Below, in pieces: positions 27,735 to 54,905 of a stretch of DNA of 63,317 nucleotides. Under the pieces are notes generated by a model that was not told the DNA's origin, made no database searches, and saw nothing but the letters and a program-made list of their open reading frames with translations. Origin of the DNA: Pseudobdellovibrionaceae bacterium. GTDB lineage: Bacteria; Bdellovibrionota; Bdellovibrionia; Bdellovibrionales; UBA1609. The first letter of the stretch is position 1, and every line of letters begins with the position of its first letter. The stretch lies in contig JABJQG010000043.1 in assembly GCA_018663505.1 (NCBI GenBank), positions 1-63,317 on the forward strand, read 5' to 3'. A program made the translations under genes and the position numbers.

Positions 27735-28191
27735 CTGTAAGAGTCTTTAATCGTAAAGGCTCGGTTTAAACAGCACACTCACATACAAAAGTCTGATGAC
27801 TTAAAGTCTTAGTTATAAAAGTCTTAAGACTTTAGAGAGCTTGCGACGCATGTCCAGTATATTACACCAACAAACATCCCGATATCAATACCAAGGTCTA
27901 GTTAACGCGCGACCATGGTCTAGTTGTTCTAGACTGTCCTTCAGTCTTACAGGACCTCGCCGAAAGAGGTGTTGTAAGTATTGCAACTGGTCTTTAAGAC
28001 CTAAAACAAAAGTCGAGTTAATTCTTTGAGTGACTGCGAAGATTAGCATAAAAAATTGATTTTTATTTTTGTCTTAAAAGGTGGTTTCAACATGTTCAAC
28101 CCAGCACACGATGTGTGATTTTCAGACTGAGCCTTGTAGGAAGGACACTGAAACTATTGAAATGGATATCGCAACAACAAAGGAGTCTATT
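27735..28191 (+). promoter_or_regulatory. 457-bp upstream region and long leader of flagellin C
   Basis: No gene is supported here; a 62-codon frame at 27841 has no recognisable content. The region holds a perfect AAAGTCTTAAGACTTT palindrome (~27817-27834) surrounded by repeated AAGTCTT units, three CTAG-centred boxes (GGTCTAG at 27895 and 27917, CTAGAC at 27929), a sigma28-type promoter (27940-27966), and a ~219-base leader. The leader contains the conserved motif 28073-28099 shared, inverted, with flagellin A and several GGA motifs (GTAGGAAGGAC, ATGGATATC, AAAGGAGTC) of the kind bound by CsrA. Confidence 0.6.
27940..27966 (+). promoter_or_regulatory. Sigma28-type promoter of flagellin C
   Basis: TTCAGTCT, 11 bases, GCCGAAAG; 5/8 and 6/8 matches to the flagellar consensus with exact spacing. 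Start of transcription would be near 27973, 219 bases before the ATG. Confidence 0.62.
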
Positions 28192-29025
28192 ATGCCATTA
28201 ACTCTAACCACGAATCTAGCGTCAATTAACGCTCAGAAATCTATGGCCAAAACAGAGAGAAATCTTGATAAAAGTTTTTCACAACTTTCTTCAGGATCAA
28301 GAATTACAAAAGCTGCTGATGATGCCGCAGGGTTATCTATCAGTGAAGGCTTACAATCTACAATCAGAGGTTATGGACAAGCTCGTCGAAATGCCAATGA
28401 TGCTATCTCTATGATTCAAGTATCAGAGGGTGGGTTAGGTGAAGTCAGTAATATTTTAACACGTCTAAGAGAGTTAGGTGTGCAAGCCGCTTCAGACACC
28501 GTAGGGCAAGACGAAAGAGGCTTTATAGATAAAGAAGTTCAACAACTAAAAAATGAGGTACAGCGTATTGCTGAATCCACAAGATACGGAAATACAAAGT
28601 TATTAGATGGTTCAGGAGAAGAATTTTCTTTTCAAGTAGACATCAATAATGATGATTTTCAAGATAGAATTGGCTTTGATGCTTCGGCTCAAGAGGCCAC
28701 GCTCAGTGCATTAGGTATAGATGGTTTTGATTTTTCAGATAAGACAAACGCAAGAGAGTCTTTGGAAGTTCTAGAAGGAGCTCAGAAAAATGTAAACGGT
28801 CATCGTGCCACACTTGGTGCCTTGCAAAACAGACTTATATCAACAACAGAGAACTTAGGTAGCGCAATAGAAAACTTTTCTGCAGCGAACTCACGAATTC
28901 GTGACACAGATGTAGCACAAGCTTCTGCTGAACTTGCTAGAAATAATATTTTAAAAGCAGCTTCCGTGTCAGTTATGGCACAGGCTAATGCAAGTCCATC
29001 ACAAGCACTTAAATTAATTGGATAA
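28192..29025 (+). CDS. fliC: Flagellin (copy C)
   Basis: A 277-aa flagellin beginning MPLTLTTNLASINAQKSMAK, with GSRITKAADDAAGLSISEGL, MIQVSEGGLGEVSNILTRLR and ELGVQAASDTVGQDERGFID, and a C-terminal NSRIRDTDVAQASAELARNN ending ASPSQALKLIG. The ATG at 28192 has AAAGGAG just upstream; an in-frame GTG at 28081 would add 37 unrelated residues. Unlike copies A and B it is on the plus strand and precedes flaG-fliD-fliS. A weak hairpin (CCCAGAG/CTCTGGG, ~29089-29114) follows. Confidence 0.96.
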   Translation: MPLTLTTNLASINAQKSMAKTERNLDKSFSQLSSGSRITKAADDAAGLSISEGLQSTIRGYGQARRNANDAISMIQVSEGGLGEVSNILTRLRELGVQAASDTVGQDERGFIDKEVQQLKNEVQRIAESTRYGNTKLLDGSGEEFSFQVDINNDDFQDRIGFDASAQEATLSALGIDGFDFSDKTNARESLEVLEGAQKNVNGHRATLGALQNRLISTTENLGSAIENFSAANSRIRDTDVAQASAELARNNILKAASVSVMAQANASPSQALKLIG

Positions 29026-31365: not shown

Positions 31366-31776
31366 ATGAACCGTGGTTATCAAAAGTACAAGTCGGCTAA
31401 TGTGGAAAGTGCATCAAGAGAGAAGTTACTTCTTTTATTATATGAAGGAGCAATTAAGCATATTAAAAAAAGTATGCTAGCTGTTGAGGCTAACAACATA
31501 GCCGAGCGTGGAACAAATATTGGTAGGGCTTATGATATTATTATGGAACTAAATAATACTCTTAACCATGAAGTTGGCGGAGAAATCGCAAAAAATTTAG
31601 AACAACTATATATGTTCATTACTGAGCAACTCACTCAGGCTAATATTGATGGAAGCAAAGAGCCCCTTGAAAATGCTCTTAAGGTAACCACAACATTGTA
31701 TGAAGGTTGGAAAATTGCAATTGAAGATTTAAAAAAGAAAGATAATTCAGCACTTAAGGAACTAAAAATAGGCTAA
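31366..31776 (+). CDS. fliS: Flagellin export chaperone FliS
   Basis: FliS binds the flagellin C-terminus and prevents premature polymerisation. The 136-aa protein has the conserved start GYQKYKSANVESASREKLLL, LLYEGAIKHIKKS, the NIGRAYDIIMELNNTLNHEV helix and LYMFITEQLTQANIDGSKEP, followed by TLYEGWKIAIEDL. All are family marks. The start is preceded by AAGGAATAAAA. It forms an operon with the next small gene. Confidence 0.96.
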   Translation: MNRGYQKYKSANVESASREKLLLLLYEGAIKHIKKSMLAVEANNIAERGTNIGRAYDIIMELNNTLNHEVGGEIAKNLEQLYMFITEQLTQANIDGSKEPLENALKVTTTLYEGWKIAIEDLKKKDNSALKELKIG

Positions 31777-31791
31777 TCTAAGGAGGGATAT

Positions 31792-32229
31792 GTGAATCAA
31801 ATACTAGCGCTACTCAGAGAAAAGAATTCTCTACTGGAGAAATTCTATTCGTTGAATAGAAATGAAATTCAGAATATTACAGATCAAAACTTTTCAAATA
31901 TAGAAAAGTTTTATCAAGATAGGGAAGATATATTAGGTATTATTCGCTTAATTGATAGAAAAATTGATGAATCCAATAATACAGCAGATTCTTTGGAGGA
32001 AGTAGATACCGTCTCTGATGAGATCCGTATTGAAATGCGGGAACTACTTTCCTTTAAAAAAGCTATTGTAGAAAAGATTTTATCTCAAGATCTGGGGATT
32101 TTGTCACAAATTGATGATGAAAAATCTAGAATAATAGTTGAGCTATCAAAAACTGGGACACAGAAAAAAGCCATTGGTTCCTATAAATCTAAAGGCAAGC
32201 GTAACCATAGACTAGACGAAAGTTTTTAG
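31792..32229 (+). CDS. Small coiled-coil protein in the FliT position
   Basis: A 145-aa, highly charged helical protein directly after fliS, where FliT/FlgN-type chaperones are found. It opens MNQILALLREKNSLLEKFYS with NRNEIQNITDQNFSNIEKFY, consistent with heptad helices, and later VEKILSQDLGILSQIDDEKS. Sequence alone does not prove the family; FliT is a guess from position and size. GTG start with AAGGAGGG upstream. A Lys/Arg-rich tail is unusual for FliT. Confidence 0.75.
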   Translation: MNQILALLREKNSLLEKFYSLNRNEIQNITDQNFSNIEKFYQDREDILGIIRLIDRKIDESNNTADSLEEVDTVSDEIRIEMRELLSFKKAIVEKILSQDLGILSQIDDEKSRIIVELSKTGTQKKAIGSYKSKGKRNHRLDESF

Positions 32230-32311: not shown

Positions 32312-32327
32312 TGGCATGACAGTTGCT
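32312..32327 (+). promoter_or_regulatory. Sigma54-type promoter of the glycosylation island
   Basis: TGGCATGACAGTTGCT matches TGGCAC-N5-TTGCA with exact GG-N10-GC spacing (GG at 32313-32314, GC at 32325-32326). It lies 38 bases before the TPR gene start. A stable hairpin (GGCCTC...GAGGCC, ~32269-32303) just upstream may terminate the fliS operon or serve an enhancer-binding protein. Confidence 0.7.
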
Positions 32328-32364
32328 CCACTAATTTAGGTGATTACTTACCTAAGGAGTGGGA

Positions 32365-33438
32365 GTGTCTAATATAGATTTTAGTCCAGAAATTCAATTA
32401 GAAGAAAAAGTGCAAAATGCAGAAGGGGAAATAGATAGATCTGTTTCTCCTATGATAGGTTTGATAGCTCATCCAGAAACTAGCAGGCAAGAAGAGCTTT
32501 TAAAGTTTGATTTAGAATATCAAACAGAAAAACCGAGAGGCAAAAAGGATAGTTTTGTAGAAAACGGTATGTTACTTCTTGATAGTAAGGAATATAAATA
32601 TTCCGAAGTCTTATTTAGAAAGGCATTATTAAAAGACTCAAAAAATTTTGACGCTATTGTAGGTTTAGGTTTGTCCTTTTTAGGGCAGCTAGATTTTGAC
32701 AAAGCCTTAAAATGCTTTAAAGCATCTTTACAGCTTAAACACACAGAGAAAGTATTGTCATATATTGGAGATTGTTATTATACAAAGGCTGAAGATGAGG
32801 TCGCATTACATTACTATGAACAGTCTTTGATAGGACTGCAGTATGATTCTCTAAGGTTGTTTGATATTTATAAAAATATTGGAAATATTTTTGTTAGAAA
32901 AAATGATTATGAAAGTGCTGAAGAGAATTATAATAAAGCTTATACCATAAATCCAGATTCGGATGTTTTAGCTGTCAATTACGGAACATTAGAAATTCAA
33001 AAAGGGAACTTAGATACTGCACAAGAGCGTTTTAAATCAGCTATTCATTTTAACAACAAAAATGATAAAGCATGGCTAGGTTTATCCCTCGTTAATAGGG
33101 AGTTCGGCGATATCGATTTATCATGGGGTAATTTAAATAAGTCCTTAGATTTAAACCCACTGAACCAAGTATCCTTGCAGTTAGCTATGGACTGGGCTTT
33201 TCGAGATGGAAAAATTGATCAAATGGTAGGTCTTTTAGAGAACTACTTAAGTGTAAATGATCAAGATGCAGAGATGAGTTTTTTACAGGCTCAAATTTTA
33301 TATAAAATAGGGCGTTTCGCCCATGCGAAAATAGAAATGCAAAGAGTATTAGCCATAGATCCAATGTTGAACGGGGCCAGTGACCTTATGAGCTTTATTT
33401 GTGAAAGCTTAAATAAAGTGGAAAATCGTAATGATTGA
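32365..33438 (+). CDS. TPR-repeat protein heading a glycosylation-type gene cluster
   Basis: Contains about seven to eight tetratricopeptide repeats from residue ~75 onward (for example KEYKYSEVLFRKALLKDSKN, FDKALKCFKASLQLKHTEKV, NDYESAEENYNKAYTINPDS, GNLDTAQERFKSAIHFNNKN, ending FAHAKIEMQRVLAIDPML). No signal peptide, so cytoplasmic. GTG 32365 is chosen because AAGGAG is ~6 bases upstream (GTG 32359 is alternative). It overlaps the next gene by 8 bases. TPR proteins adjacent to flagellin glycosyltransferases are known to bind flagellin (FlmG of Caulobacter); a similar adaptor role is an inference. Confidence 0.85.
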   Translation: MSNIDFSPEIQLEEKVQNAEGEIDRSVSPMIGLIAHPETSRQEELLKFDLEYQTEKPRGKKDSFVENGMLLLDSKEYKYSEVLFRKALLKDSKNFDAIVGLGLSFLGQLDFDKALKCFKASLQLKHTEKVLSYIGDCYYTKAEDEVALHYYEQSLIGLQYDSLRLFDIYKNIGNIFVRKNDYESAEENYNKAYTINPDSDVLAVNYGTLEIQKGNLDTAQERFKSAIHFNNKNDKAWLGLSLVNREFGDIDLSWGNLNKSLDLNPLNQVSLQLAMDWAFRDGKIDQMVGLLENYLSVNDQDAEMSFLQAQILYKIGRFAHAKIEMQRVLAIDPMLNGASDLMSFICESLNKVENRND

Positions 33439-34078
33439 TATTTTAACAAACAACGAAAATCTTCAGGTTATAAAGTATAATGGACAGCTTATGTGTTCGT
33501 TACGTGACCCAATTAAAGCAGCAGGGACATGGTTAGCTCATTTCGAACAAAGTTATCATGATAATATTGCTGAGTATGATTTAATTTTTGTTGTTGGCTT
33601 AGGTTCCGGATATGAGCTCAAGCAATTCGTAACAAAGTATAAAAACATTAGGGTTATAGTTGTGGATACCAGCCCGATCCTGTTTGATCGCATTAAAAAA
33701 ATTCACCCAATTTTAGATGAAAAGATTGAATTTATGTGTGTAAGTTCAATGAATGAGTTCTTTAACAATCAGCTTATTGCTGAAAATATTTCTAAACTAT
33801 ACGCAGTAGCTAAAATTAATTTTTCTTTACGTCCAGAGAAGTATTTATTTAGTGAGATATATAAGGCTTTTACTGTGAGAACCTCACAAAGCTTCTCTAA
33901 GTATATTGCAAGATATGAAAAATTAGAGAAATTAATAAGCAAAACTAAGTTAAACAACTCATTAAAAGAGAATGAATTGATTAGTGTATTAAATTTGAAT
34001 GAAAGTTTAGATGAACAAAATCTTCGTGGCCAATACAGCATTGAATTACTAAAAGTGTTAAAGGAGCTAGTTGTATAG
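33431..34078 (+). CDS. Maf-N/MptE-like protein, probably flagellin glycosylation accessory
   Basis: A 215-aa protein resembling only the N-terminal part of motility accessory factors (Maf, DUF115 proteins): LIFVVGLGSGYELKQFVTKY then NIRVIVVDTSPILFDRI, which reads as a nucleotide-binding Rossmann start. The remainder is helical and Lys/Asn-rich, without the rest of DUF115. It overlaps the TPR gene by 8 bases and abuts the GT9 gene, so it is translationally coupled to both. Truncated relative to Maf (~600 aa). Confidence 0.65.
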   Translation: MIDILTNNENLQVIKYNGQLMCSLRDPIKAAGTWLAHFEQSYHDNIAEYDLIFVVGLGSGYELKQFVTKYKNIRVIVVDTSPILFDRIKKIHPILDEKIEFMCVSSMNEFFNNQLIAENISKLYAVAKINFSLRPEKYLFSEIYKAFTVRTSQSFSKYIARYEKLEKLISKTKLNNSLKENELISVLNLNESLDEQNLRGQYSIELLKVLKELVV

Positions 34079-35770
34079 ATGAACGAATTTAAACTTCTTA
34101 CTAAGAAAAAGATATTAGTTGTTAACTTATTAAGAATTGGTGACATAATTTCTAGTACTCCCATATTAAAAGGCATAAAAAATGAAAACCCTGGGGCAGA
34201 AATTCATTTACTTATTAATAAACAATTTTCTTTTATGGAGAACCTCATACCTTTTGTAGATAAATTCATATACTTCAATAGGACTAACTTTCAAAACTCC
34301 ATATGTAGTGAAGATCGCCCGTTATTCGAATCAATGCACCTATTAGACAGGTTTATACAAAAACTAAATATGAGTAAGTATAATGATGTGATTAACCTTT
34401 CGCAAAATAGATTATCAACGCAAATTTGTTCCCTCATTAATTGCGAAGAGCTTCATGGACTGTCATTATCTTCAAGAGGTGATATATCATCAAGCTCCTC
34501 ATGGTTTAGGTATTTAAATGACTATGAGAGTATTAGAAAGCAAAGTGTGTTTAATTATATAGATGTATTTAAAAGAGCAGTTTTAGTTAATCCAAATGGG
34601 TATAACAAAATTTATTTAAAAGAGAGTGTCAAGGGGATTCTTCTGGCAGATGGATTTATAAAAGCAAATCTAATAGGAAAAAGTATTGTTTCTATTCAGG
34701 TGCTTACAAGTGAAGAAAAGAAAAACTGGGGTGCTGAAAATTTTAAAGAATTAATAGAGAGCATTCTTTTGGAAAACGAGAATGTGGCCTGTGTGTTACT
34801 TGGTGCACCAAATGAAATTGATTATTTAAATAATCTAAAGAATTTAGTAAAAGGGCCTATTGCTGATAGATTACATATTTTTGCAGAATCACTTTCTGCA
34901 ACCTTCACTTTATTAAATCACAGTCAAATATTGATAACTGGAGATACAAGTATTAAGCACATGGGTGCTGCTGTGGATAATTTACCAATAATAGAGTTAA
35001 GCATTGGAAGCAGTCATTTAAAGAAAACCGGTGTTTATGTTAAGGATGCAGTAATTTTACAAGCTAAGAGAAGCTGCGCTCCATGTGGGCACGACAATAC
35101 CTGTGAGAACCAGCAATCTCTTGCTTGTCGTCAAGATATTGCTCCAAAGCTCGTTACAAAGATAGCTAACTATATACTTGGTGGAAGTCCTGTTAAAAAG
35201 ATAGAAAAAATATTTGCTTCTGAAAATTTACTATCTACTGAAGTATATTTAACAGAGTTTACAGGTTATGGGTTATGGTTTGCCACTAGTATTTGTGGTC
35301 AGCAAGATATTGTTAATGAAAAATTGAATCAATGGACTTGGGCGCATTTTCTGGACAATAAAATCGCAACAAGGAACTATGATTTTGAGCTACCGCATGA
35401 AGACCTCTTGATGAGTGACATAGCAAGGGTAAATATTAGAAAAAATGACCTAACTAGCTATTTTGAATATCAAAAATTAATAAAATATCGAAAATCTTTT
35501 TTAAGATCAATGCAGGGCAATGATTTTAGCTTATTCTCTCAATCTATAACAGCAATACTAAATCTTGATAGTATTGCTAATGATGCGCCCCTGCTTGAGC
35601 TTTATTACAATCAAATAGTTAGTAGCTGGAAATTAGGTTTAGCGAAAAATTTTTACCAAATTAGAAAACTTTCGATTGTTATTGATGACTTAATTACAAG
35701 ATATGAATCGAAAATGAAAATTTATCAAAAAGTAAAAGCACAGCATTTATTTAAAGGAGGTCATTTATGA
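34079..35770 (+). CDS. GT9-family heptosyltransferase-like protein (563 aa)
   Basis: The N-terminal half follows ADP-heptose:LPS heptosyltransferases: KKILVVNLLRIGDIISSTPI, LKGIKNENPGAEIHLL, LYxDVINLS-type KYNDVINLSQNR, SIQVLTSEEKKNWGAENFKE, and the donor-site segment ILITGDTSIKHMGAAVDNLP. It also has the Cys motif SCAPCGHDNTCENQQSLACR typical of this family. About 200 extra C-terminal residues are helical and unrecognised. It uses the TPR-Maf-GT9 context beside flagellar genes, suggesting protein (flagellin) rather than LPS as acceptor. Overlaps the 58-aa gene downstream (ATGA). Confidence 0.88.
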   Translation: MNEFKLLTKKKILVVNLLRIGDIISSTPILKGIKNENPGAEIHLLINKQFSFMENLIPFVDKFIYFNRTNFQNSICSEDRPLFESMHLLDRFIQKLNMSKYNDVINLSQNRLSTQICSLINCEELHGLSLSSRGDISSSSSWFRYLNDYESIRKQSVFNYIDVFKRAVLVNPNGYNKIYLKESVKGILLADGFIKANLIGKSIVSIQVLTSEEKKNWGAENFKELIESILLENENVACVLLGAPNEIDYLNNLKNLVKGPIADRLHIFAESLSATFTLLNHSQILITGDTSIKHMGAAVDNLPIIELSIGSSHLKKTGVYVKDAVILQAKRSCAPCGHDNTCENQQSLACRQDIAPKLVTKIANYILGGSPVKKIEKIFASENLLSTEVYLTEFTGYGLWFATSICGQQDIVNEKLNQWTWAHFLDNKIATRNYDFELPHEDLLMSDIARVNIRKNDLTSYFEYQKLIKYRKSFLRSMQGNDFSLFSQSITAILNLDSIANDAPLLELYYNQIVSSWKLGLAKNFYQIRKLSIVIDDLITRYESKMKIYQKVKAQHLFKGGHL

Positions 35771-35943
35771 CTGAAAATGCAGATTTAAAAATCAAATTAA
35801 AGAGGCTTGAACAGTTAACTCAAAAAATTATGAAAACTCAAGGCTATAATAAAGAAATCGAAAAGGTGAAAGTCTTAGAAGAACTTATTAGGGAGCAGTT
35901 TAAAAATGAAAATACTAATTCTTCAACTCGCCAGATTCGGTGA
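35767..35943 (+). CDS. Small coiled-coil protein (58 aa) between the two GT9 genes
   Basis: A 58-codon gene with a strong ribosome site (AAAGGAGG, 6 bases before ATG). It begins MTENADLKIKLKRLEQLTQK and continues as a charged helix (EIEKVKVLEELIREQFKNEN). Its start overlaps the preceding GT9 stop (ATGA) and its 3' end overlaps the next GT9 gene by 38 bases in another frame, so translational coupling is likely. No domain recognised; size and heptads suggest a small adaptor or subunit. Confidence 0.72.
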   Translation: MTENADLKIKLKRLEQLTQKIMKTQGYNKEIEKVKVLEELIREQFKNENTNSSTRQIR

Positions 35944-37420
35944 CATATATCAAACTTATCCGGCATTAAATGCTTTAAAAAGAGTTTATCCAAGTGCCAA
36001 GATAGATGTATTAGTTCGTGAAAAATTTGCTAAAGCCGCAGAAGCTTGTGAGAGTATTGATGAGATTATTCAGTTGAATACTAAGGAGATATTGCATCCT
36101 TTTCTCCAGCCTTTAACTTCAGATGAGGATACTTTTTCTGATGAGCTCAGTGAGTCCTTGTTGGAGATCGGTAAACTTTTGGATAAGTTGAAACTTAATG
36201 AATACACTCATATTTATAATATAAGTTTTTCTCCTTTATCGAGTTATTTGTTGTCAACACTAACGGAGGAAAGCATGCATATCGGTGGCTATTCTCGCCA
36301 TTCTGATGGGTATTTATCAATATTTGGGGATATTTCAGCATACTTTTACGCTCAGGTGGGTGTAGGTAAAAAGAATCGTTTTCATCTGTGTGACATCTTT
36401 GCAAATGTAGTTGGTGTAGAATTGGAAGATCGTGATTTTCAAGTGTCTCAAAATGCTCTTGCTGGAACAAAGGCTGAGTTGAGTCAGATTGATAAATATA
36501 TTTGTTTTCACTTAGCTGCAAGTACAGAAGATAAAACTCTTGAGCCTTTTAAGTGGGTGCAGGTTATAAGAAAACTTAGAGATATTAAAGACATTAGCAT
36601 TGTTTTGTTAGGTGCAGCCAATGAACAAACTATTGCCGACGAAGTTATGCAACAGATTGATGATAAGAGAATAATTAACCTTGTAGGTAATACAGAGTTT
36701 TCTGAGTTGCTGGGGGTGGTAAACAAAGCTCAATTGGTTGTCGGTGCAGATAGTCTATTTATGCAACTTGCAAACTTGGTACAAACCCCATGTTTAAATT
36801 TTTCTTTTCCCTCTGTTAATTTTTGGGAAACGGGTCCCTTAGCTTCACAAAGTGCGGTGGTTTACAAAGAATCAAGGGAGATGCTAACTTCAGATGTGCT
36901 AAGTAATGAAATCACTTTATTTCTTTCTAGTGATGAATTTAGCGATACTTGTATTCGAAAATCTGATAAGGGGTTAACTAGATATAATGTGGACTTGGAT
37001 GAGGTCTTTGATTTTCATTGGAATTTAATTAAAGCACTTTATCTTCCGGGGCAAGTTTTCCCACATCTTCTTTTGCAAGAGCACTTTCAAGCTATTTGGC
37101 AACTTAAGGATATTCTAGGTTTTGTTATTGACCAAGTAGAGAAAATGGAAGGTCAGTCGGATGATAAGTTACAAGATTTAAATTTATCCATTGTTGAAAG
37201 TGAACAGCTTATTGGTGCTATTTTTAGATTAGTCCCAGATTTAATGCCAATTTATTGGTGGTTTCAAACAGAAAAGATTAGAATTGCGCCAGCCCCTTTG
37301 AGCCACATTATTAATGAAACAAAATCTAAATATGAACAGTTATTAGCTGTGGTTGACTTATATATTTCTATGGACCCAGGAGCCGATCATAAACAAATTG
37401 CCCAACCATTGGAGGCCTAA
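35906..37420 (+). CDS. Second GT9-family heptosyltransferase-like protein (504 aa)
   Basis: Opens with the heptosyltransferase signature MKILILQLARFGDIYQTYPA then LNALKRVYPSAKIDVLVREK; KYICFHLAASTEDKTLEPFK and SIVLLGAANEQTIADEV are in the expected places, and VVGADSLFMQLANLVQTPCL corresponds to the donor-binding segment. It lacks the GT9 C-x-x-C-x-H cluster seen in the preceding gene. A ~150-residue C-terminal extension is helical. Start ATG at 35906, with GGGAG upstream. Its stop overlaps the next start by one base (TAATG). Confidence 0.87.
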   Translation: MKILILQLARFGDIYQTYPALNALKRVYPSAKIDVLVREKFAKAAEACESIDEIIQLNTKEILHPFLQPLTSDEDTFSDELSESLLEIGKLLDKLKLNEYTHIYNISFSPLSSYLLSTLTEESMHIGGYSRHSDGYLSIFGDISAYFYAQVGVGKKNRFHLCDIFANVVGVELEDRDFQVSQNALAGTKAELSQIDKYICFHLAASTEDKTLEPFKWVQVIRKLRDIKDISIVLLGAANEQTIADEVMQQIDDKRIINLVGNTEFSELLGVVNKAQLVVGADSLFMQLANLVQTPCLNFSFPSVNFWETGPLASQSAVVYKESREMLTSDVLSNEITLFLSSDEFSDTCIRKSDKGLTRYNVDLDEVFDFHWNLIKALYLPGQVFPHLLLQEHFQAIWQLKDILGFVIDQVEKMEGQSDDKLQDLNLSIVESEQLIGAIFRLVPDLMPIYWWFQTEKIRIAPAPLSHIINETKSKYEQLLAVVDLYISMDPGADHKQIAQPLEA

Positions 37421-38037
37421 TGGAAACAGTTGTCATAAAAAGAGAAGATCTTATTAGTAGAAATTCAGATAATAAATTTTTGCAACAAGTAATTAGGAAG
37501 ATTGAGAAAGATTATTGGGATGATGGTAAGGTATTATTTGATGTACATTTAGATGGAATACTTATCGATGAATCTTCTCCATTCAATAATTTAGATATTC
37601 AATCTAATGACTATTCAGAAATTAAATTAAGAGTTCAGCTTTTGGATGATTTAGTATGGTCCACGGTAGACTCTACATTAGAGTATGTGAAAAAATTATC
37701 TACTTTCTGTGAATCCACAGTTGATAAGTATAGAAAAGAAAAATATGAAGCAGCCTTAAGGGATTTGGTGCAAATCGTAGATAGCGCACAATGGACATTT
37801 GAATCGGTGACACTAATTAATACTCAGCTTACTAAAAAATGTCCAACGGCATATCAGTCTCAATTCGCCCTTTGGATGAATACTGAGTTGAAGTTCGTCA
37901 ACGTTCTAAAGGAGCTTATTGAATCCTTTGATTCTAGCGACTATATATTACAAGCCGACATTCTTGAATTTGATTTTTTAACTATTCTTGATGAAAGTTT
38001 AGTTTATTTAGAGTCTATTAAAAATACCCGAGTATAA
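37420..38037 (+). CDS. Orphan protein ending the glycosylation island
   Basis: A 205-aa acidic protein that starts on the last base of the preceding stop (TAATG), so it is coupled to the GT9 gene. It has no signal peptide or membrane helix. A beta-rich first 75 residues (GKVLFDVHLDGILIDESSPF) is followed by long helices (STLEYVKKLSTFCESTVDKY, YEAALRDLVQIVDSAQWTFE). No family is recognised. About 57 bases of spacer and a likely promoter separate it from the histidine kinase. Confidence 0.78.
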   Translation: METVVIKREDLISRNSDNKFLQQVIRKIEKDYWDDGKVLFDVHLDGILIDESSPFNNLDIQSNDYSEIKLRVQLLDDLVWSTVDSTLEYVKKLSTFCESTVDKYRKEKYEAALRDLVQIVDSAQWTFESVTLINTQLTKKCPTAYQSQFALWMNTELKFVNVLKELIESFDSSDYILQADILEFDFLTILDESLVYLESIKNTRV

Positions 38038-38094: not shown

Positions 38095-40098
38095 ATGAAT
38101 ACGAACTCTATCACTTGGTTTGGACCCTGGCCACAATTACCTGATGCTTACTTAAAGTTAGCACATGGGTACAATATTCACTATATACCAGTAAGTTCTT
38201 TCGCGGAATTACAAAGTCAAAGTGACTCTAGACCATTAAAATTAATTGGACCTTTGAAAGGTGATCTCGCAGGAGCCACTGACGCAGATAATTATTTTAA
38301 TTCAGAACAAAATGAATCTATCCTTTGGATTAATGAAAAATCTGAGATGGATGATTTGATCTATATAGCTAATCAAAATTCAGTATATGGGGTTGTTAAT
38401 ATTCTAAAAGATTGCTCAGCAATGGAGGGTGGTTTAAGTGAATTTATTGGCAATTACAATAAAAAGATAGAACGTAAACAGTTGCATAAAAATTTAAAAG
38501 ATAAAAATCTAGAGTTGGATTCCTTAAATTTAAACTTAAAAGAGCTAGTAAAGGCTCGAACTGAAGACTTGGAAACATCCCGGCAGTTACTCAGTCAGAA
38601 GGCTATGAGCCTAAAAAAACTAGTTAGTTTTGTAGATACAGTTTCTTTTCAGGCAGATTTCGAAGGGATCCTCAGTTTTCTTCATCGAGAAATTAAAAAG
38701 TTTGAAAATATAGGCACGCCATTACTTATGTATACCCTCAACCATCAGTTAACCAAAATAGTTTCTATTCAAGGCGGGGCAATATCCAGTCATAGTTGTC
38801 GACAAAAAAAATTATTTGAAGAATTAAAAGTCACAAGGAATGAAGAAGAGCTTCAGTTACGTTTAGCAAATGAACTGGGGCGCCCCTTTAACAGAATTTT
38901 GCCAATAACTTTAATATTGAATAAACATAATTTTTCTGGAGAAGTAGGAGCATTGTTAATGTTTGAGCACCAGCTCGGAGGCCAAGAGCTTCATAAGTTT
39001 ATGGAGTTTATTACAGAAAGACTACAGGCTGTAAGCATTGCCGTAGAAAAATTACTTTTGGAAGATGACTTTATTGAGAACTCAAAATTATGGGAATATA
39101 CATTTGATGGTGTGGAAAATCCAATTGCTATTGTAGATGAAAACTTTAATTTACTGAGGTCCAATACACATTTTCAAAAAAATAATAAATTCACAAACTG
39201 CTATGAAATATTTCAAGGTAGGGAAGCTCCTTGCACCGGCTGTCCCATGAGTCCAAATAAGAATGAAAGTGCGGGCTTTGTTTCAAAAAATGAAAAAACT
39301 TATCAGGTGTTTTCATATCCAATTAAATTTGAGAGTCAAAGTAAGGTAAAGGTTTTTGTTAACTATTATTTGGATGTAACTCGAACTAAAGCTCTTCAAT
39401 CTAAAGTTATACAAAATGAAAAAGTGGCGGCAATAGGGCATTTAGCAGGAAATATAGCACACGAACTAAATAACCCACTTTCTGGAATAAAAGCCATGAC
39501 ACAATTTTTGCTTCAAGAAATTGTTGATGATAAATCGCTTCGAGATGATATCAATGAAGTAAATAAAGCAGTAGTTCGATGCCAACAAATAATTAGTAAT
39601 CTTTTGGATTTCACTAAGGAAGGTGAGGCTGAGGATGAGGAAGGCAGTTTAACAGACTTAGTGGCAACAACATTGCCATTATTAAAAACTATTTTATCAG
39701 ACCATAATGTGGAGATAAATTTGTCAAATTCGGTGGGCAAAATTAAGGGATCCATGCCTTTAATTCAGCAGGTTATATTTAACTTAGTAAAAAATGCTTG
39801 TCAGGCGATTAAGGTCGGACCGGGGAGTATTCAAATATCAACAGGGTCCAATGATGATTATTGGTCATGGTTTGAGATTAGGGACTCTGGCGCAGGTATG
39901 AGTCCAGGGGTTATTGAATCTATTTTTGAGCCTTTTTATACTACAAAAAAAGAAGGCGATGGCACGGGGCTCGGACTTTTTATTAGTAAAAATATTGTTG
40001 ATAAATTCAAGGGAACCATTGAAATTAAGTCTCATTTAGGAGAGGGTACTACCTTTAAAGTAAGTTTTCCAAAAATAAATCACAAGGAGATAGCTTGA
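38095..40098 (+). CDS. Soluble hybrid-type sensor histidine kinase with Cys-bearing PAS domain
   Basis: A cytoplasmic kinase. Residues 1-125 look like a degenerate receiver domain; 125-175 is coiled coil; ~175-320 may be GAF-like; ~330-430 is a PAS domain with C369, C380 and C383 in NCYEIFQGREAPCTGCP, a pattern seen in redox- or metal-sensing PAS domains. The HisKA box GHLAGNIAHELNNPL places the phospho-His at H456. The ATPase has the N box (IQQVIFNLVKNACQAI), G1 (IRDSGAGM) and G2 (GDGTGLGLFIS). It overlaps the receiver gene by 4 bases, its presumed partner. Confidence 0.93.
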   Translation: MNTNSITWFGPWPQLPDAYLKLAHGYNIHYIPVSSFAELQSQSDSRPLKLIGPLKGDLAGATDADNYFNSEQNESILWINEKSEMDDLIYIANQNSVYGVVNILKDCSAMEGGLSEFIGNYNKKIERKQLHKNLKDKNLELDSLNLNLKELVKARTEDLETSRQLLSQKAMSLKKLVSFVDTVSFQADFEGILSFLHREIKKFENIGTPLLMYTLNHQLTKIVSIQGGAISSHSCRQKKLFEELKVTRNEEELQLRLANELGRPFNRILPITLILNKHNFSGEVGALLMFEHQLGGQELHKFMEFITERLQAVSIAVEKLLLEDDFIENSKLWEYTFDGVENPIAIVDENFNLLRSNTHFQKNNKFTNCYEIFQGREAPCTGCPMSPNKNESAGFVSKNEKTYQVFSYPIKFESQSKVKVFVNYYLDVTRTKALQSKVIQNEKVAAIGHLAGNIAHELNNPLSGIKAMTQFLLQEIVDDKSLRDDINEVNKAVVRCQQIISNLLDFTKEGEAEDEEGSLTDLVATTLPLLKTILSDHNVEINLSNSVGKIKGSMPLIQQVIFNLVKNACQAIKVGPGSIQISTGSNDDYWSWFEIRDSGAGMSPGVIESIFEPFYTTKKEGDGTGLGLFISKNIVDKFKGTIEIKSHLGEGTTFKVSFPKINHKEIA

Positions 40099-40460
40099 GA
40101 ATATTGATAGTTGATGACGAACCAATTATAAGGCGGTCTCTGTTGCGAGTGGGTAAATCTCTAGGTGACGAGATGTTTGAAGCTGAGGACGGACTTTTGG
40201 GATTTGAGGCTATGAAAAGTGTTAAACCAGACCTGGTATTTCTTGATGTTCTTATGCCTAAGTTAACAGGGCCGCAGATGCTAGAAAAGGTAGGTGATAA
40301 AGGCGACATAAAGGTGGTCCTTATGTCAGCTTATTCTGGTGAGTATAACTTGCAAACGGCAAAAGCTTTAGGTGCAGATTTGTTTCTGGCAAAACCTTTT
40401 GATGATATATTTAAAGTATTTAATGAAGCAAAAAAACTGGTTGGGGGTACTCATGACTGA
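40095..40460 (+). CDS. Single-domain response regulator
   Basis: A 121-aa receiver domain without output domain: MRILIVDDEP (acidic pocket), the phospho-acceptor D51 in VFLDVLMPKLTGP, the switch VVLMSAYSG, and LAKPF with the conserved Lys. TTG start overlapping the kinase stop, preceded by AAGGAGA. It is coupled to the kinase before it and to the PilZ-like gene after it, suggesting a phosphorelay that controls a c-di-GMP-type output. Confidence 0.93.
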   Translation: MRILIVDDEPIIRRSLLRVGKSLGDEMFEAEDGLLGFEAMKSVKPDLVFLDVLMPKLTGPQMLEKVGDKGDIKVVLMSAYSGEYNLQTAKALGADLFLAKPFDDIFKVFNEAKKLVGGTHD

Positions 40461-40803
40461 TCAAGGGACAAATGAAATCAGAGAGAAAGTAAAACCTTAC
40501 CCAATGAAATTAAACCTTGTGGGTGGCAAGATTATAAAAGGTGAGATTTTAAAACTTACGGAGGTTGGATTTTTATCGGATTTAAAGGGTGAGTTTGTGG
40601 AGGTAGGCGATGCGTATAAAGCTGACTTTACAATTCCTGTTTTTAGTAAACATATAACCATTGATATTATTATTATAAAAACTTACGACCATTATATGTC
40701 TAAAGATAATGTTGTGCGTATTGTAGAATGTCATTATGAGTTTATTGGTGACGATATTAAACAAGAAATTAATAGATTTTTAGAAGCCATACAGCAAACA
40801 TAG
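40453..40803 (+). CDS. PilZ-like protein
   Basis: A 116-aa protein overlapping the receiver gene by 8 bases. It reads like a PilZ domain by pattern (YPMKLNLVGGKIIKGEILKL, TEVGFLSDLKGEFVEVGDAY, ADFTIPVFSKHITIDIIIIK) but the canonical RxxxR c-di-GMP motif is not visible, so ligand binding is uncertain. ATG 40453 is used because the upstream frame overlaps the receiver coding region. It probably acts downstream of the kinase/receiver pair. Confidence 0.65.
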   Translation: MTDQGTNEIREKVKPYPMKLNLVGGKIIKGEILKLTEVGFLSDLKGEFVEVGDAYKADFTIPVFSKHITIDIIIIKTYDHYMSKDNVVRIVECHYEFIGDDIKQEINRFLEAIQQT

Positions 40804-50839: not shown

Positions 50840-53083
50840 ATGAAAAATTTTGAAAACACTAAAGGATTTTCCCTCATGGAGGTCATGGTCTCCATTGGGA
50901 TCATGAGTATTGTCAGTTTAGGTGTGACAAGTTTGCTAGTGAAAACTAACCAAGAGGTAAAAAAAGCAAATGTAAAATTGCTGGCAAACAGTATACTTGT
51001 ACAAGTACAGTCCTATGTTAAAAATGATAGAATTTGGTCATCATCAAGAAACAATTCAGGAAATGCTAACTCAAATGGAAGTAACGGGCTTAACAACACA
51101 CAGAATTCTTTTTATTGTTTAGATAATCCTGGGGTATGCACTAAAACAGCAAAACATTTTGTACTATACAGCTCCTCAGGTAGTTTAAATAGTAACTTAA
51201 CCTCAACAGCAACTGATCCTGATCTTCGAGGTTTTGATTTAAATGGTTTACCATGCTCTAGCTATGATGCGGTTAATGGAAATGATAATTGCCCTTTTGG
51301 CCTTACACTTACATTTACTCCACTTTGTGCCGGAAATAGCTGTAGTAGTAACAACTCTACTGCTATTCGCATTGACGGTTCGCTTAAGTACAAACCCAAT
51401 AGTTCAAATTTAAAAATGGCGATGAATGAATCATTCTTAAAATTCTCCTTGCTGCGTCACCCTTCAGCTGTAGAGAGTGATGTTGAACGGATTTGTGAAG
51501 AAGATTTTGCGGGCAATTGGCTTGATGGTATATGTCATCTAAATACACAATCAATTTGTGAGAGTTTGTTTGGTGTATGGGGCGGTAACACATGCACTAG
51601 CTTACAAAGTTCAGCAGGAACATGTAGTTCTATTGGTGGTGTGTGGACGGGTATTGGTAATGGGCAAAGTGCGTGTGTTATTCCTGCTTTGACAGATACT
51701 TGTAAGGAGCTGGGTGGAACGCCAGAGTATGTGGGTGTGAACTCTACATTTTCCTGTGCCAATTTGAGCTATAACACTGTGACTAATACTAATGGCAACA
51801 GTGAAGTCAAAAAAATCTGTGAAAAGCTAGGTGGAGTTGGAACTTTTTCTAGCGCTTCATTGAATGCGGCGGCCAGTTGTGACCTCTCAGGAATGTATGC
51901 AACTAGCTTTGAAACAACTTGCAAAGCAGTCTCCGACGGAGGGAATGGTGGTCGTATTGTTGCAGATGCTAGTGTACTAGGTGGAAAATACTGCATTTGG
52001 GATGATAGTGTTTTAGATACTAAATTAAAAAATTTCTGTGAGGGTTTAGATCAGAATATTTTAGGAACAGGTGTGTCCGCATCCACTGGACTTTATGATG
52101 CTAATACAAAAGACTGTTCATTTTCCATGGTTCATGCCATAGACAATATTAAAATTGCTTCTGACGTGAAAAAAGTTTTTAGTGAGGATTTTGCGACTCC
52201 CAATACGGTGAATCACACGTTAGGGTCCGCTAGATGCCAAGATGGTTATTACATGCAAGGGTTTGATAGTAATGGTGTTCCAATCTGCTTTGAATACTTG
52301 CCGTATGTATGTACTCCCACATGGGCACCTTCTCCTGAAAACACATGCACCACAGGAACAATAACTCAGACCGATGGGTGTGGTGGAAGTCAGACTGTGA
52401 GTGGGACAAAAGTTTGTAGTACTTGCTCAACTACTAGTACACCACAAGTATATAACCTGACTAGCACCCCTCCTTCTCCTAAGTTATGTATAGGTCAACA
52501 ATATATGACTAACCTAAGTAATACTCTTCCAAATCAATGCGCAGAAACTGGGGCACTAGTATGCGAGTCTTCAGCTGGAGCTTTTGTCAGCAGAAGAAGC
52601 ATTGGCTTTAATAATTCCAGATGGTTAAATACTTGTGTGTGCTCTACTTATTTGGGCACGGGAACACATACAGAGTCTGATTGCACTACAGATGGTGGTG
52701 TTGTTAAGAATGCGGAATCTGGAGTAAAAGTATGCGCATTTCCGGCTGATTTTACAAATCCTGCTTTTGGACCCTGTATTTTCACTGAGGGGCTAGGTGG
52801 AGCTGAATGTACTAATATTTGTCCCACAGGTTGGTCAAAATATTCGGGTTGGATGGAAACTGCAGATAGAACCTGTAATGAAAATCCTGACTCAAATGAT
52901 GTTGCTAATTGTGGTATAACCACTTGCACTGCTACAGGTCAAAATTGGAGTAACCATTCAATCCGAAACACTTGTAACTACCAAGGTCGTCAAGGATTAT
53001 TTATTCCAACACCAACAAGTCCATGTGGAATAGTAGCGAATATAGCCTGCAGATCAAGTTATAGAAGTATGGGGTGTCATTAA
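50840..53083 (+). CDS. Giant cysteine-rich type IV prepilin-like protein 1 (747 aa)
   Basis: The N-terminus is a type IV prepilin signal, FENTKGFSLMEVMVSIGIMS, with cleavage expected after G9 and Glu at +5. The following helix anchors it in the membrane. The rest is several times longer than ordinary pilins, has many cysteines and repeats of the type CxxxxGxWxxxxCxLNTxxxCxxLLGxW and GGVWxxxxxxxxC, then a C-terminal CPTGWSKYSGWMETADRTCN region and IACRSSYRSMGCH end. It is the first of three paralogs. Type II secretion/pilus minor subunits are the nearest class. Likely a surface adhesin carried by a pilus; function is inferred. Confidence 0.85.
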   Translation: MKNFENTKGFSLMEVMVSIGIMSIVSLGVTSLLVKTNQEVKKANVKLLANSILVQVQSYVKNDRIWSSSRNNSGNANSNGSNGLNNTQNSFYCLDNPGVCTKTAKHFVLYSSSGSLNSNLTSTATDPDLRGFDLNGLPCSSYDAVNGNDNCPFGLTLTFTPLCAGNSCSSNNSTAIRIDGSLKYKPNSSNLKMAMNESFLKFSLLRHPSAVESDVERICEEDFAGNWLDGICHLNTQSICESLFGVWGGNTCTSLQSSAGTCSSIGGVWTGIGNGQSACVIPALTDTCKELGGTPEYVGVNSTFSCANLSYNTVTNTNGNSEVKKICEKLGGVGTFSSASLNAAASCDLSGMYATSFETTCKAVSDGGNGGRIVADASVLGGKYCIWDDSVLDTKLKNFCEGLDQNILGTGVSASTGLYDANTKDCSFSMVHAIDNIKIASDVKKVFSEDFATPNTVNHTLGSARCQDGYYMQGFDSNGVPICFEYLPYVCTPTWAPSPENTCTTGTITQTDGCGGSQTVSGTKVCSTCSTTSTPQVYNLTSTPPSPKLCIGQQYMTNLSNTLPNQCAETGALVCESSAGAFVSRRSIGFNNSRWLNTCVCSTYLGTGTHTESDCTTDGGVVKNAESGVKVCAFPADFTNPAFGPCIFTEGLGGAECTNICPTGWSKYSGWMETADRTCNENPDSNDVANCGITTCTATGQNWSNHSIRNTCNYQGRQGLFIPTPTSPCGIVANIACRSSYRSMGCH

Positions 53084-53084
53084 T

Positions 53085-54905
53085 ATGAAAAAGATAACTA
53101 CACTCCATTATTTATTCAATTCAAAAGGTTTCTCCTTAATGGAAATTATGGTTGTCACAGGTGTAATGTCAATAATGAGCGCTGGTGTTGCTAGAATGAT
53201 TAGTAATATGAATACTGAAAATAAAAAGATTATAATAAAAACAACAGCTCAATCGGTACTTTCATTGGTAGAATCTCAGATGAAAAGTGATCATATTTGG
53301 ACAGCCACGAGAAATAACGCTGGGAATGATGGGTCGGCAGCTGTGCAAAACACAGAATCCTTTTATTGTTTTGATGAAGGGACAAACTGTACTACTACTC
53401 CAAAACATTTTATTTTGTATAGCTCCAGTACAGAAGTTAATAGTAATTTGAGCTCAGATGCTGCGGACCCTGACTCTAGAGGTTTTGATTATAATGGTGT
53501 GCCGTGCTCCACTTACGATGTTAATGGGGATGACGGTTGCCCATTTCAGTTAAAATTAACTTATGTTCCAAGTTGTAATAATGTGGCCTCCTGTACTGTT
53601 GGGAATTCTAGTATAACCATTACTGCAGCTATAACATATAGCCCTGCGAGTGAGCGATTAAAAGTGCCTATGAACTCCAATGGATTAAAAATTGTTCGTT
53701 CTCGTGGTGCTTCGACTGTGGCAACTTATCCTGAAAGAATATGTGAACATTTTAGAGGAAGATGGGATGGATCTAACTGTCGGTTAAATACAGAGAATGT
53801 GTGTAGAGATTTACTGGGATCATGGGATGCCAATTTAAATCGTTGTTCTACTGTACAAGGTTCAGCTAGTCTCTGCACAGAAGTTGGTGGTGTGTGGAAC
53901 CACTTTGGAAATAATAAATGCAATTTTCCAGGATTAATAGATATGTGTAAAGAGATGGGAGGAACTCCTGCTCAAAATGGTAACTTTCAATTTGTATGTA
54001 ATGGCCTGAGTTCTACTGCAAACAGTACCACAAGCGTTTTCAAAAACCTCTGTATAGTTATGAAGGGTAGTTTCACCGATGCTACAGCTACCACAGCCAG
54101 TGTTTGTGATACAACTAATTTATATAACAATGCATTGACCACAACTTGCACGCAAAATGGGGGGAAAATTGTGGTGGATGCTTCAGTGTATGGAGGCAAG
54201 TTTTGTGTTTGGGATCAAAACAACTTAGACCTTCGCCTTCAAGACTTGTGTGCAAATTTAGATAACCAGATTTCTGGTTTAACAGTAAATAATGGTTCAG
54301 GTGTCTATGATGGGACAAATTGTTTGTTTAGTGTTTCCCATGATGCTGATAATATCCGGCAGGACACTGACGTCACAACAGTGTATAATGCCGCGACAGC
54401 TGCCCCAGCGCCTAATGCTGTGGGTACTGCAAGGTGCTCCCCAGGGTTTCACTTTAATGGATTTTACAACAATGGAATGCCTGTTTGTATTCAGCTTCCT
54501 GTTACTGGGCCTAGTGGGCCTCAGTTTTCTGATTGTTCGGCATCCATTGTGATGCTTAACCGCGGAATGAGAGATAAAGATCTTGCATGGGTTAACACAG
54601 TTGTGACTGGGCAAGAGTCGCTTTTGGGTTGGGGAGGTTCAAAACATGTTACTCTTCTTAACGGACAGAAATACCTGTTACCTATCACAAAGCACGGTTT
54701 AAAAGTAAAAATTTTAGACTACGCTGGCTTTGTCAATGCAAATGCAAATTACCCGGGTTATCTAGAGTATTCTAACTTTTTATCAACTCCTCGTTGGATG
54801 AGTAGTCTTGTAAGATTAAATGTGGCACTACCTGCGCTAACAAATATTACTGACTCATTAACTGTACATACATGTAATAATGGTACCTGGGAGAAAACTC
54901 CATGA
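53085..54905 (+). CDS. Giant cysteine-rich type IV prepilin-like protein 2 (606 aa)
   Basis: Prepilin signal NSKGFSLMEIMVVTGVMSIM, cleavage after G15. It starts one base after the previous stop. It is paralogous to its neighbours across the N-terminal and central Cys-rich parts (for example RICEHFRGRWDGSNCRLNTE, VGGVWNHFGNNKCNFPGLID, MCKEMGGTPAQNGNFQFVCN) but ends differently, with GWGGSKHVTLLNGQKYLLPI and a short CNNGTWEKTP, so it lacks the C-terminal SxW/CxxGW domain of copies 1 and 3. Domain swapping at the C-terminus is suggested. Stop overlaps the next start by 4 bases. Confidence 0.85.
   Translation: MKKITTLHYLFNSKGFSLMEIMVVTGVMSIMSAGVARMISNMNTENKKIIIKTTAQSVLSLVESQMKSDHIWTATRNNAGNDGSAAVQNTESFYCFDEGTNCTTTPKHFILYSSSTEVNSNLSSDAADPDSRGFDYNGVPCSTYDVNGDDGCPFQLKLTYVPSCNNVASCTVGNSSITITAAITYSPASERLKVPMNSNGLKIVRSRGASTVATYPERICEHFRGRWDGSNCRLNTENVCRDLLGSWDANLNRCSTVQGSASLCTEVGGVWNHFGNNKCNFPGLIDMCKEMGGTPAQNGNFQFVCNGLSSTANSTTSVFKNLCIVMKGSFTDATATTASVCDTTNLYNNALTTTCTQNGGKIVVDASVYGGKFCVWDQNNLDLRLQDLCANLDNQISGLTVNNGSGVYDGTNCLFSVSHDADNIRQDTDVTTVYNAATAAPAPNAVGTARCSPGFHFNGFYNNGMPVCIQLPVTGPSGPQFSDCSASIVMLNRGMRDKDLAWVNTVVTGQESLLGWGGSKHVTLLNGQKYLLPITKHGLKVKILDYAGFVNANANYPGYLEYSNFLSTPRWMSSLVRLNVALPALTNITDSLTVHTCNNGTWEKTP

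Follow-up and report, generated by a model that had tools for sequence, protein, structure and literature searches.

We analysed 63,317 nt of contig JABJQG010000043.1 from a Pseudobdellovibrionaceae bacterium (the whole stretch is hereafter the window) and, within it, a six-gene operon downstream of the flagellin chaperone gene fliS. The operon encodes a tetratricopeptide repeat (TPR) protein, a stand-alone homologue of the Maf N-terminal domain (MafN), two GT9-family glycosyltransferases (GT9a and GT9b), a small probable coiled coil (CC58) and a protein of an unnamed family (ORPH). We propose, at a probability of roughly 0.7, that this sigma-54-driven operon serves cytoplasmic flagellin glycosylation, with the GT9 enzymes acting together with a helper layer that includes the stand-alone Maf N-domain. 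The initial annotation of this DNA had described an overlapping six-gene cluster, and all six open reading frames (ORFs) are indeed present, abutting or overlapping, between 32359 and 38037.

By sequence comparison, MafN is a homologue of the Maf N-terminal domain that lacks the Maf catalytic domain. None of MafN, CC58 and ORPH from the window gave a confident single-sequence Pfam match, and MafN alone matched no Maf domain; nevertheless, 13 of its 21 orthologs matched PF20157 (Maf_flag10_N, best 2.6e-5), and the homologue in a locus from a second phylum (L185) exceeded the Pfam gathering cut-off for that family. HHalign paired MafN with the N-domain of canonical Maf proteins (the PF01973-containing set) at 98.5% (E 1.5e-15, 90 columns), which together with the PF20157 orthologs confirms the Maf likeness first noted for this short protein, and with MafN-CgeB fusions at 99.6% (E 4e-24, 144 columns). 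Compared by sequence with solved structures, MafN gave weak methyltransferase matches only, in agreement with the published account of the Maf N-domain (PMC11339370), a degenerate Rossmann fold that weakly resembles methyltransferases; the roles of the N- and C-terminal domains of Maf are described there as unclear. Like Maf itself (Aeromonas caviae Maf1, Magnetospirillum Maf; PF20157 plus PF01973), the module combines this homologous N-domain with a flagellar neighbourhood, and action in the cytoplasm ahead of FliS is expected for it too. Unlike in Maf, the N-domain here is a chain of its own, the MptE-like/sialyltransferase-like catalytic domain PF01973 is found neither in MafN nor anywhere else in the genome at E ≤ 1, and catalysis would fall to the two GT9 proteins.

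The same components recur in the second phylum, whose representative L185 the tree tool labels Myxococcota. ORPH profiles match 32 of 198 genomes there, usually adjoining GT9, MafN or fliS, and the common gene order is MafN-CgeB, GT9, MafN-CgeB, GT9, ORPH, a small gene, fliS, fliD and flagellin. These loci share with the window the MafN domain, an extended GT9, ORPH and adjacent fliS and fliD, and differ in that MafN is fused to a CgeB-like glycosyltransferase, a domain missing in Bdellovibrionota. In G412, G350 and G482, ORPH directly adjoins a canonical Maf. The sixth gene is therefore no orphan, as it had been labelled, but a member of a widespread family. Across flagellar loci, the catalytic partner of MafN is thus of three kinds, MptE-like, CgeB-like and GT9, and the recurrence of MafN and ORPH with all three argues most strongly for a flagellar protein as the target of the module. 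That protein could be one exported with flagellin, such as the cap FliD or FlaG, given that the block lies directly 3′ of flaG-fliD-fliS and that flagellin genes are sometimes located elsewhere, but we consider this very unlikely, as both the homologous Maf and the analogous FlmG act on flagellin (PMC4065374, PMC7591256). Positions 2363-11769 of L185 additionally encode CgeB-TPR, GT2-TPR and GT4-CgeB glycosyltransferases beside GT9, MafN, ORPH, fliS and fliD, likely a locus that glycosylates flagellin with several sugars; a sigma-54-like site lies 5′ of MafN.

Both GT9 proteins retain the catalytic Asp, Lys and Asp-Thr/Ser sugar-nucleotide motif of their family. Residues D22, K215, D289, T290 and H294 of GT9a are invariant (18/18 orthologs), while D13 and D282 of GT9b are kept in 62/62 sequences and K210 in 61/62; in GT9b, Gln replaces the motif His in the window protein and 13 others. 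On the alignment, we take the conserved Asp, Lys and Asp-Thr/Ser to be equivalent to the WaaC residues. With these residues and the PF01075 matches (Table 1), the initial description of two heptosyltransferase-like proteins with C-terminal extensions holds. NCBIfam places both nearest to heptosyltransferases I-III, yet far under every equivalog cut-off. In an AlphaFold2 model of GT9b (pLDDT 93.8), residues 1-344 match WaaC, WaaF and a Veillonella GT9 at Z ~28 and TibC at Z 17.8, with the helical extension (about 366-488) falling outside all structural matches listed. The module GT9s thus resemble WaaC/WaaF/WaaQ in family, catalytic residues and fold, but differ from them in the extra extension, the flagellar operon and their separate tree groups (moderate support). 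GT9a and GT9b themselves fall into distinct groups, each with members from both Bdellovibrionia and Bacteriovoracia, in a tree whose deepest forks are weak; this grouping indicates that the pair is old and vertically inherited.

A protein acceptor for such enzymes has precedent in the bacterial autotransporter heptosyltransferases (TibC, Aah), which have a GT-B core related to WaaC, and of which TibC transfers heptose to a protein (PMC4358343); the enzymes of the module could likewise have a protein acceptor. The four-Cys motif of GT9a (C333-x2-C336-x5-C342-x7-C350) is reminiscent of the TibC iron finger (Cys 339, 342, 358 and 370; PMC4358343), although its spacing differs. Unlike TibC, the GT9b model begins with the GT-B N-lobe at residue 1 and has no N-terminal beta-barrel, and the module enzymes differ from the autotransporter group in their helical C-terminal extension and in a flagellar rather than autotransporter context.

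The initial annotation had counted rfaE2/hldE2 (17516, NCBIfam-confirmed) as support for flagellin heptosylation. We set this argument aside, because the genome also carries hldD and further, shorter GT9 proteins (336-352 aa, without the extension) elsewhere, as an LPS core would require, and LPS explains the gene equally well. ADP-heptose is a plausible donor, as the enzymes share the fold of ADP-heptose transferases and the genome encodes both hldE2 and hldD, though LPS equally needs these two genes. A search for NeuB, indicative of nonulosonic acid, returned a single 282-aa, 40-bit match on the hldD contig that could be KdsA. GT9 being mainly an LPS family, the two enzymes might instead be LPS heptosyltransferases that tailor the LPS of the flagellar outer-membrane sheath, with the operon serving sheath formation; the flagella of Bdellovibrio and Bacteriovorax are sheathed, and their sheath LPS is unlike that of the cell (PMC7175336). 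We judge this improbable: the partners of the module enzymes, a Maf N-domain and an ORPH family that also sits beside canonical Maf, both belong to the world of flagellin modification, the neighbours are export chaperones rather than LPS genes, the extension-less GT9s are available elsewhere in the genome, and the gene set also occurs in the L185 phylum, whose flagella may or may not be sheathed.

To place the operon among relatives, the MafN protein was searched against 59 of them, followed by profile searches, and key counts were deduplicated, as two genome sets share duplicate loci. The order fliS-fliT-[TPR-MafN-GT9a-CC58-GT9b-ORPH]-histidine kinase-response regulator is syntenic through the order and the phylum, with lineage-specific losses, and the named loci in a separate genome collection are almost all from Bdellovibrionota. 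The block thus occupies the same place beside fliS, a conservation that the initial annotation had proposed to check. TPR, MafN, GT9a and GT9b are all present in 46 of 80 distinct loci where the kinase accompanies fliS/fliT, while CC58 and ORPH vary; loci of other classes contain TPR and one GT9. The synteny rules out a horizontally acquired island, and that term, used at first, is misleading for what is a conserved, vertically inherited operon. The flagellar association of the module is supported far beyond chance: fliS is present in 260 of 290 phylum genomes, and strong MafN matches (E<1e-10) occur in 145 genomes, all with fliS, and in 0 of the 30 genomes that lack it (a tally of listed rows that ignores shared ancestry). 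Likewise, the stretch fetched around MafN contains fli genes at 36 of 39 seeded loci; of the other three, two are short contigs or lie at a contig edge. Mean identity to the window is 21–41% for module proteins and ~60% for FliD and FliS, from which we conclude that the module proteins evolve fast. In B. bacteriovorus HD100, fliD is Bd0611 and fliS is Bd0612 (PMC9140294), and by synteny the module should follow Bd0612. In one locus (L154), GT9b-ORPH-kinase is retained and the upstream fli genes are swapped for unrelated genes.

The operon starts at TGGCATGACAGTTGCT, an exact GG-N10-GC (GG at 32313-32314, GC at 32325-32326) that matches the consensus at 11 of 12 bases; no other site in the window combines GG-N10-GC with at least 10/12 consensus bases. 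The pattern TGGCA-N6-TTGC[T/A] lies upstream of 67 of 83 distinct TPR orthologs, with the fixed bases invariant in all 67. In the count without deduplication, a site of at least 10/12 preceded 81 of 99 TPR genes, against ~1.2 at even the looser threshold of at least 9/12 in shuffles. None of the other block genes has a site of at least 10/12, bar one MafN gene from another phylum, and the TPR genes without the conserved site include those at loci of other classes. This conservation across TPR orthologs excludes a chance match and identifies TGGCATGACAGTTGCT as a genuine conserved promoter, bearing out the promoter first called here; rpoN is present in the genome. In L096, L101, L124, L128, L131, L171 and L176, a 395–427 aa ORF lies between fliT and the sigma-54 TPR operon; the one read, from L096, resembles a lipoprotein bearing one CxxCH haem-binding motif.

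The TPR protein, which shares 25–37% identity with its syntenic orthologs, likely starts at a GTG at 32365, 5 nt 3′ of AAGGAG, rather than at the called position 32359. The suggestion that it supplies substrate recognition finds no support, and its distribution gives none for an obligatory recognition subunit: TPR and the enzymes are separable, as loci of the Bacteriovoracia type (family f18) carry MafN-GT9-GT9-ORPH but lack a TPR gene there, while two exovorus-type relatives keep TPR and the sigma-54 site and have lost the other module genes from the locus. MafN and ORPH are better candidates for recognition, and TPR may help. Like Caulobacter FlmG, whose TPR domain binds flagellin (PMC7591256), the system brings a TPR protein and GT-B enzymes together with short flagellins; here, however, TPR is a separate and dispensable gene, the glycosyltransferase family is GT9, and a Maf N-domain and ORPH are added. 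The FlmG-type trait of a required TPR domain in one chain with the glycosyltransferase was not found. Between TPR and the kinase, L105, L106 and L107 have a 348–454 aa protein of an unfamiliar family in place of MafN/GT9.

The AlphaFold2 model of ORPH (pLDDT 93.0) shows a small beta domain at the N-terminus, followed by a four-helix bundle. Fold searches returned only generic four-helix bundles, mostly designed proteins (best Z 16; FAT domains ~13), and such Z values are hardly informative for helical bundles. Sequence comparison of ORPH with the GT9 extensions detected no homology. In L034 and L045, GT9b carries an extra C-terminal stretch with the ORPH motif DYxLLADxLEYEL and no ORPH gene was found, which suggests that ORPH and GT9b work together. 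CC58, with a mean identity of 41% to its orthologs, overlaps GT9b in 54/54 distinct pairs, mostly by 38 nt, consistent with translational coupling.

By analogy with FlmG (PMC7591256) and with Maf, which glycosylates flagellin in the cytoplasm ahead of FliS binding (PMC4065374), we suggest that GT9a and GT9b glycosylate flagellin in the cytoplasm while MafN and ORPH handle the substrate; the flagellin acceptor, the division of labour, the order of action and the identity of the sugar are all parts of the scheme that we infer. Flagellin would be engaged before export by a helper layer of MafN, ORPH and possibly TPR and CC58; GT9a and GT9b, as inverting GT-B enzymes of the ADP-heptose transferase family, would add one or two sugars, possibly heptose, to its Ser/Thr residues; and FliS would then carry the modified flagellin to the export gate.

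Several observations weigh against this scheme. The enzymes are lost from the locus in some flagellated relatives, flagellin Ser/Thr positions are the same in loci with and without GT9 and yield no acceptor signature, and we found no modified flagellin for these bacteria in the open literature. ORPH and the GT9b extension, which both contain helical bundles, show no detectable sequence homology to the Maf C-terminal domain. Finally, genus g108 has a 448–452 aa protein that aligns with GT9b into the extension (HHalign 95.6%, E 1.2e-8) but lacks the catalytic motifs: on reading the sequences, other residues stand in place of the N-terminal QLARxGD, and the catalytic Asp is missing. GT9b-like proteins may accordingly have a non-catalytic role able to outlive the enzyme. 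In L114 and L115 of this genus, the candidate pseudoenzyme sits in the flagellar operon with its C-terminal extension kept. A 450-aa protein of family f5 found no support as a degenerate GT9, its HHalign probability being 0.9%.

The persistence of this motif-less protein at the same place raises the alternative that the module chiefly serves filament proteins as a chaperone or assembly scaffold, in which the GT9 fold binds flagellin and catalysis is secondary or lost. The survival of TPR alone at other loci, the largely helical, chaperone-like make-up of the operon and a module identity far under that of FliD and FliS would all fit; we nonetheless regard it as marginally less probable than sheath tailoring, as both GT9s keep the catalytic Asp and Lys in the great majority of sequences, the window included, which points to catalysis. 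Returning to flagellin glycosylation, we offer a more tentative extension, to which we give slightly less than even odds: the module may be an "exploded" Maf, whose N-domain serves as a portable unit for handling flagellin and is combined with unrelated kinds of catalysis, sialyltransferase-like in Maf itself, CgeB-like in fusions and, in Bdellovibrionota, GT9 catalysis in trans. There it would be a separate subunit with two GT9s and a four-helix partner under a conserved sigma-54 promoter, and in some lineages the GT9 would have become a non-catalytic scaffold.

Table 1. Coordinates of the operon, its promoter and its flanking genes in the window.
Feature	Position	Strand	Basis or remark
FliS, flagellin chaperone, upstream neighbour	31366..31776	+	PF02561 1.5e-36
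FliT/FlgN-like chaperone, upstream neighbour	31792..32229	+	FliT 20.2 bits, under Pfam cut-off; phylum-wide synteny
Sigma-54-type promoter TGGCATGACAGTTGCT	32312..32327	+	-24 GG, -12 GC; operon start
TPR protein, cytoplasmic, 359 aa as called	32359..33438	+	Pfam TPR_2 1.3e-21
MafN, stand-alone Maf N-terminal domain homologue, degenerate Rossmann	33431..34078	+	PF20157 in orthologs, HHalign
GT9a, heptosyltransferase-like, C-terminal extension and four-Cys motif	34079..35770	+	PF01075 4.1e-14
CC58, 58-aa probable coiled coil	35767..35943	+	Overlaps GT9b start by 38 nt
GT9b, GT9 glycosyltransferase with helical C-terminal extension	35906..37420	+	PF01075 9e-17, AlphaFold2 model
ORPH, N-terminal beta domain and four-helix bundle	37420..38037	+	AlphaFold2 model
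Histidine kinase, 3′ of module in nearly all Bdellovibrionota loci	38095..40098	+	HisKA + HATPase_c; synteny

Upstream of the operon, the window carries in order flagellin (28081 as called), a FlaG-like gene, fliD, fliS and the FliT/FlgN-like gene. The mechanically called flagellin ORF (28081-29025) is over-long at its start, and the real start is probably near 28189-28195. Downstream follow the histidine kinase, a single-domain response regulator, a PilZ-like gene, rsmD, coaD and an aminotransferase, the last four named by reading the sequences. The kinase, regulator and PilZ-like gene (38095-40803) follow the module in nearly all Bdellovibrionota loci, and kinase and regulator do so in Bacteriovoracia as well; from this near-universality we conclude that the signalling set is as old as the glycosyltransferases. 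Elsewhere in the window (50840-57109), three tandem paralogs of 606–747 aa have prepilin-type N-termini (GFSLMEVM/GFSIMEVM) and are unusually long for pseudopilins.

Flagellin glycosylation in general is already known, but, as the initial annotation had supposed for this combination of genes, our search of open-access papers found no account of the module, nor of the HD100 locus tags 3′ of fliS (Bd0612). The system would be a flagellar glycosylation machinery common to most flagellated members of one phylum, and ORPH is a marker for flagellar glycosyltransferase loci, including those with canonical Maf. With the Maf N-domain encoded as a gene separate from the GT9s in genetically tractable predators, the question of what each Maf domain does becomes directly testable.

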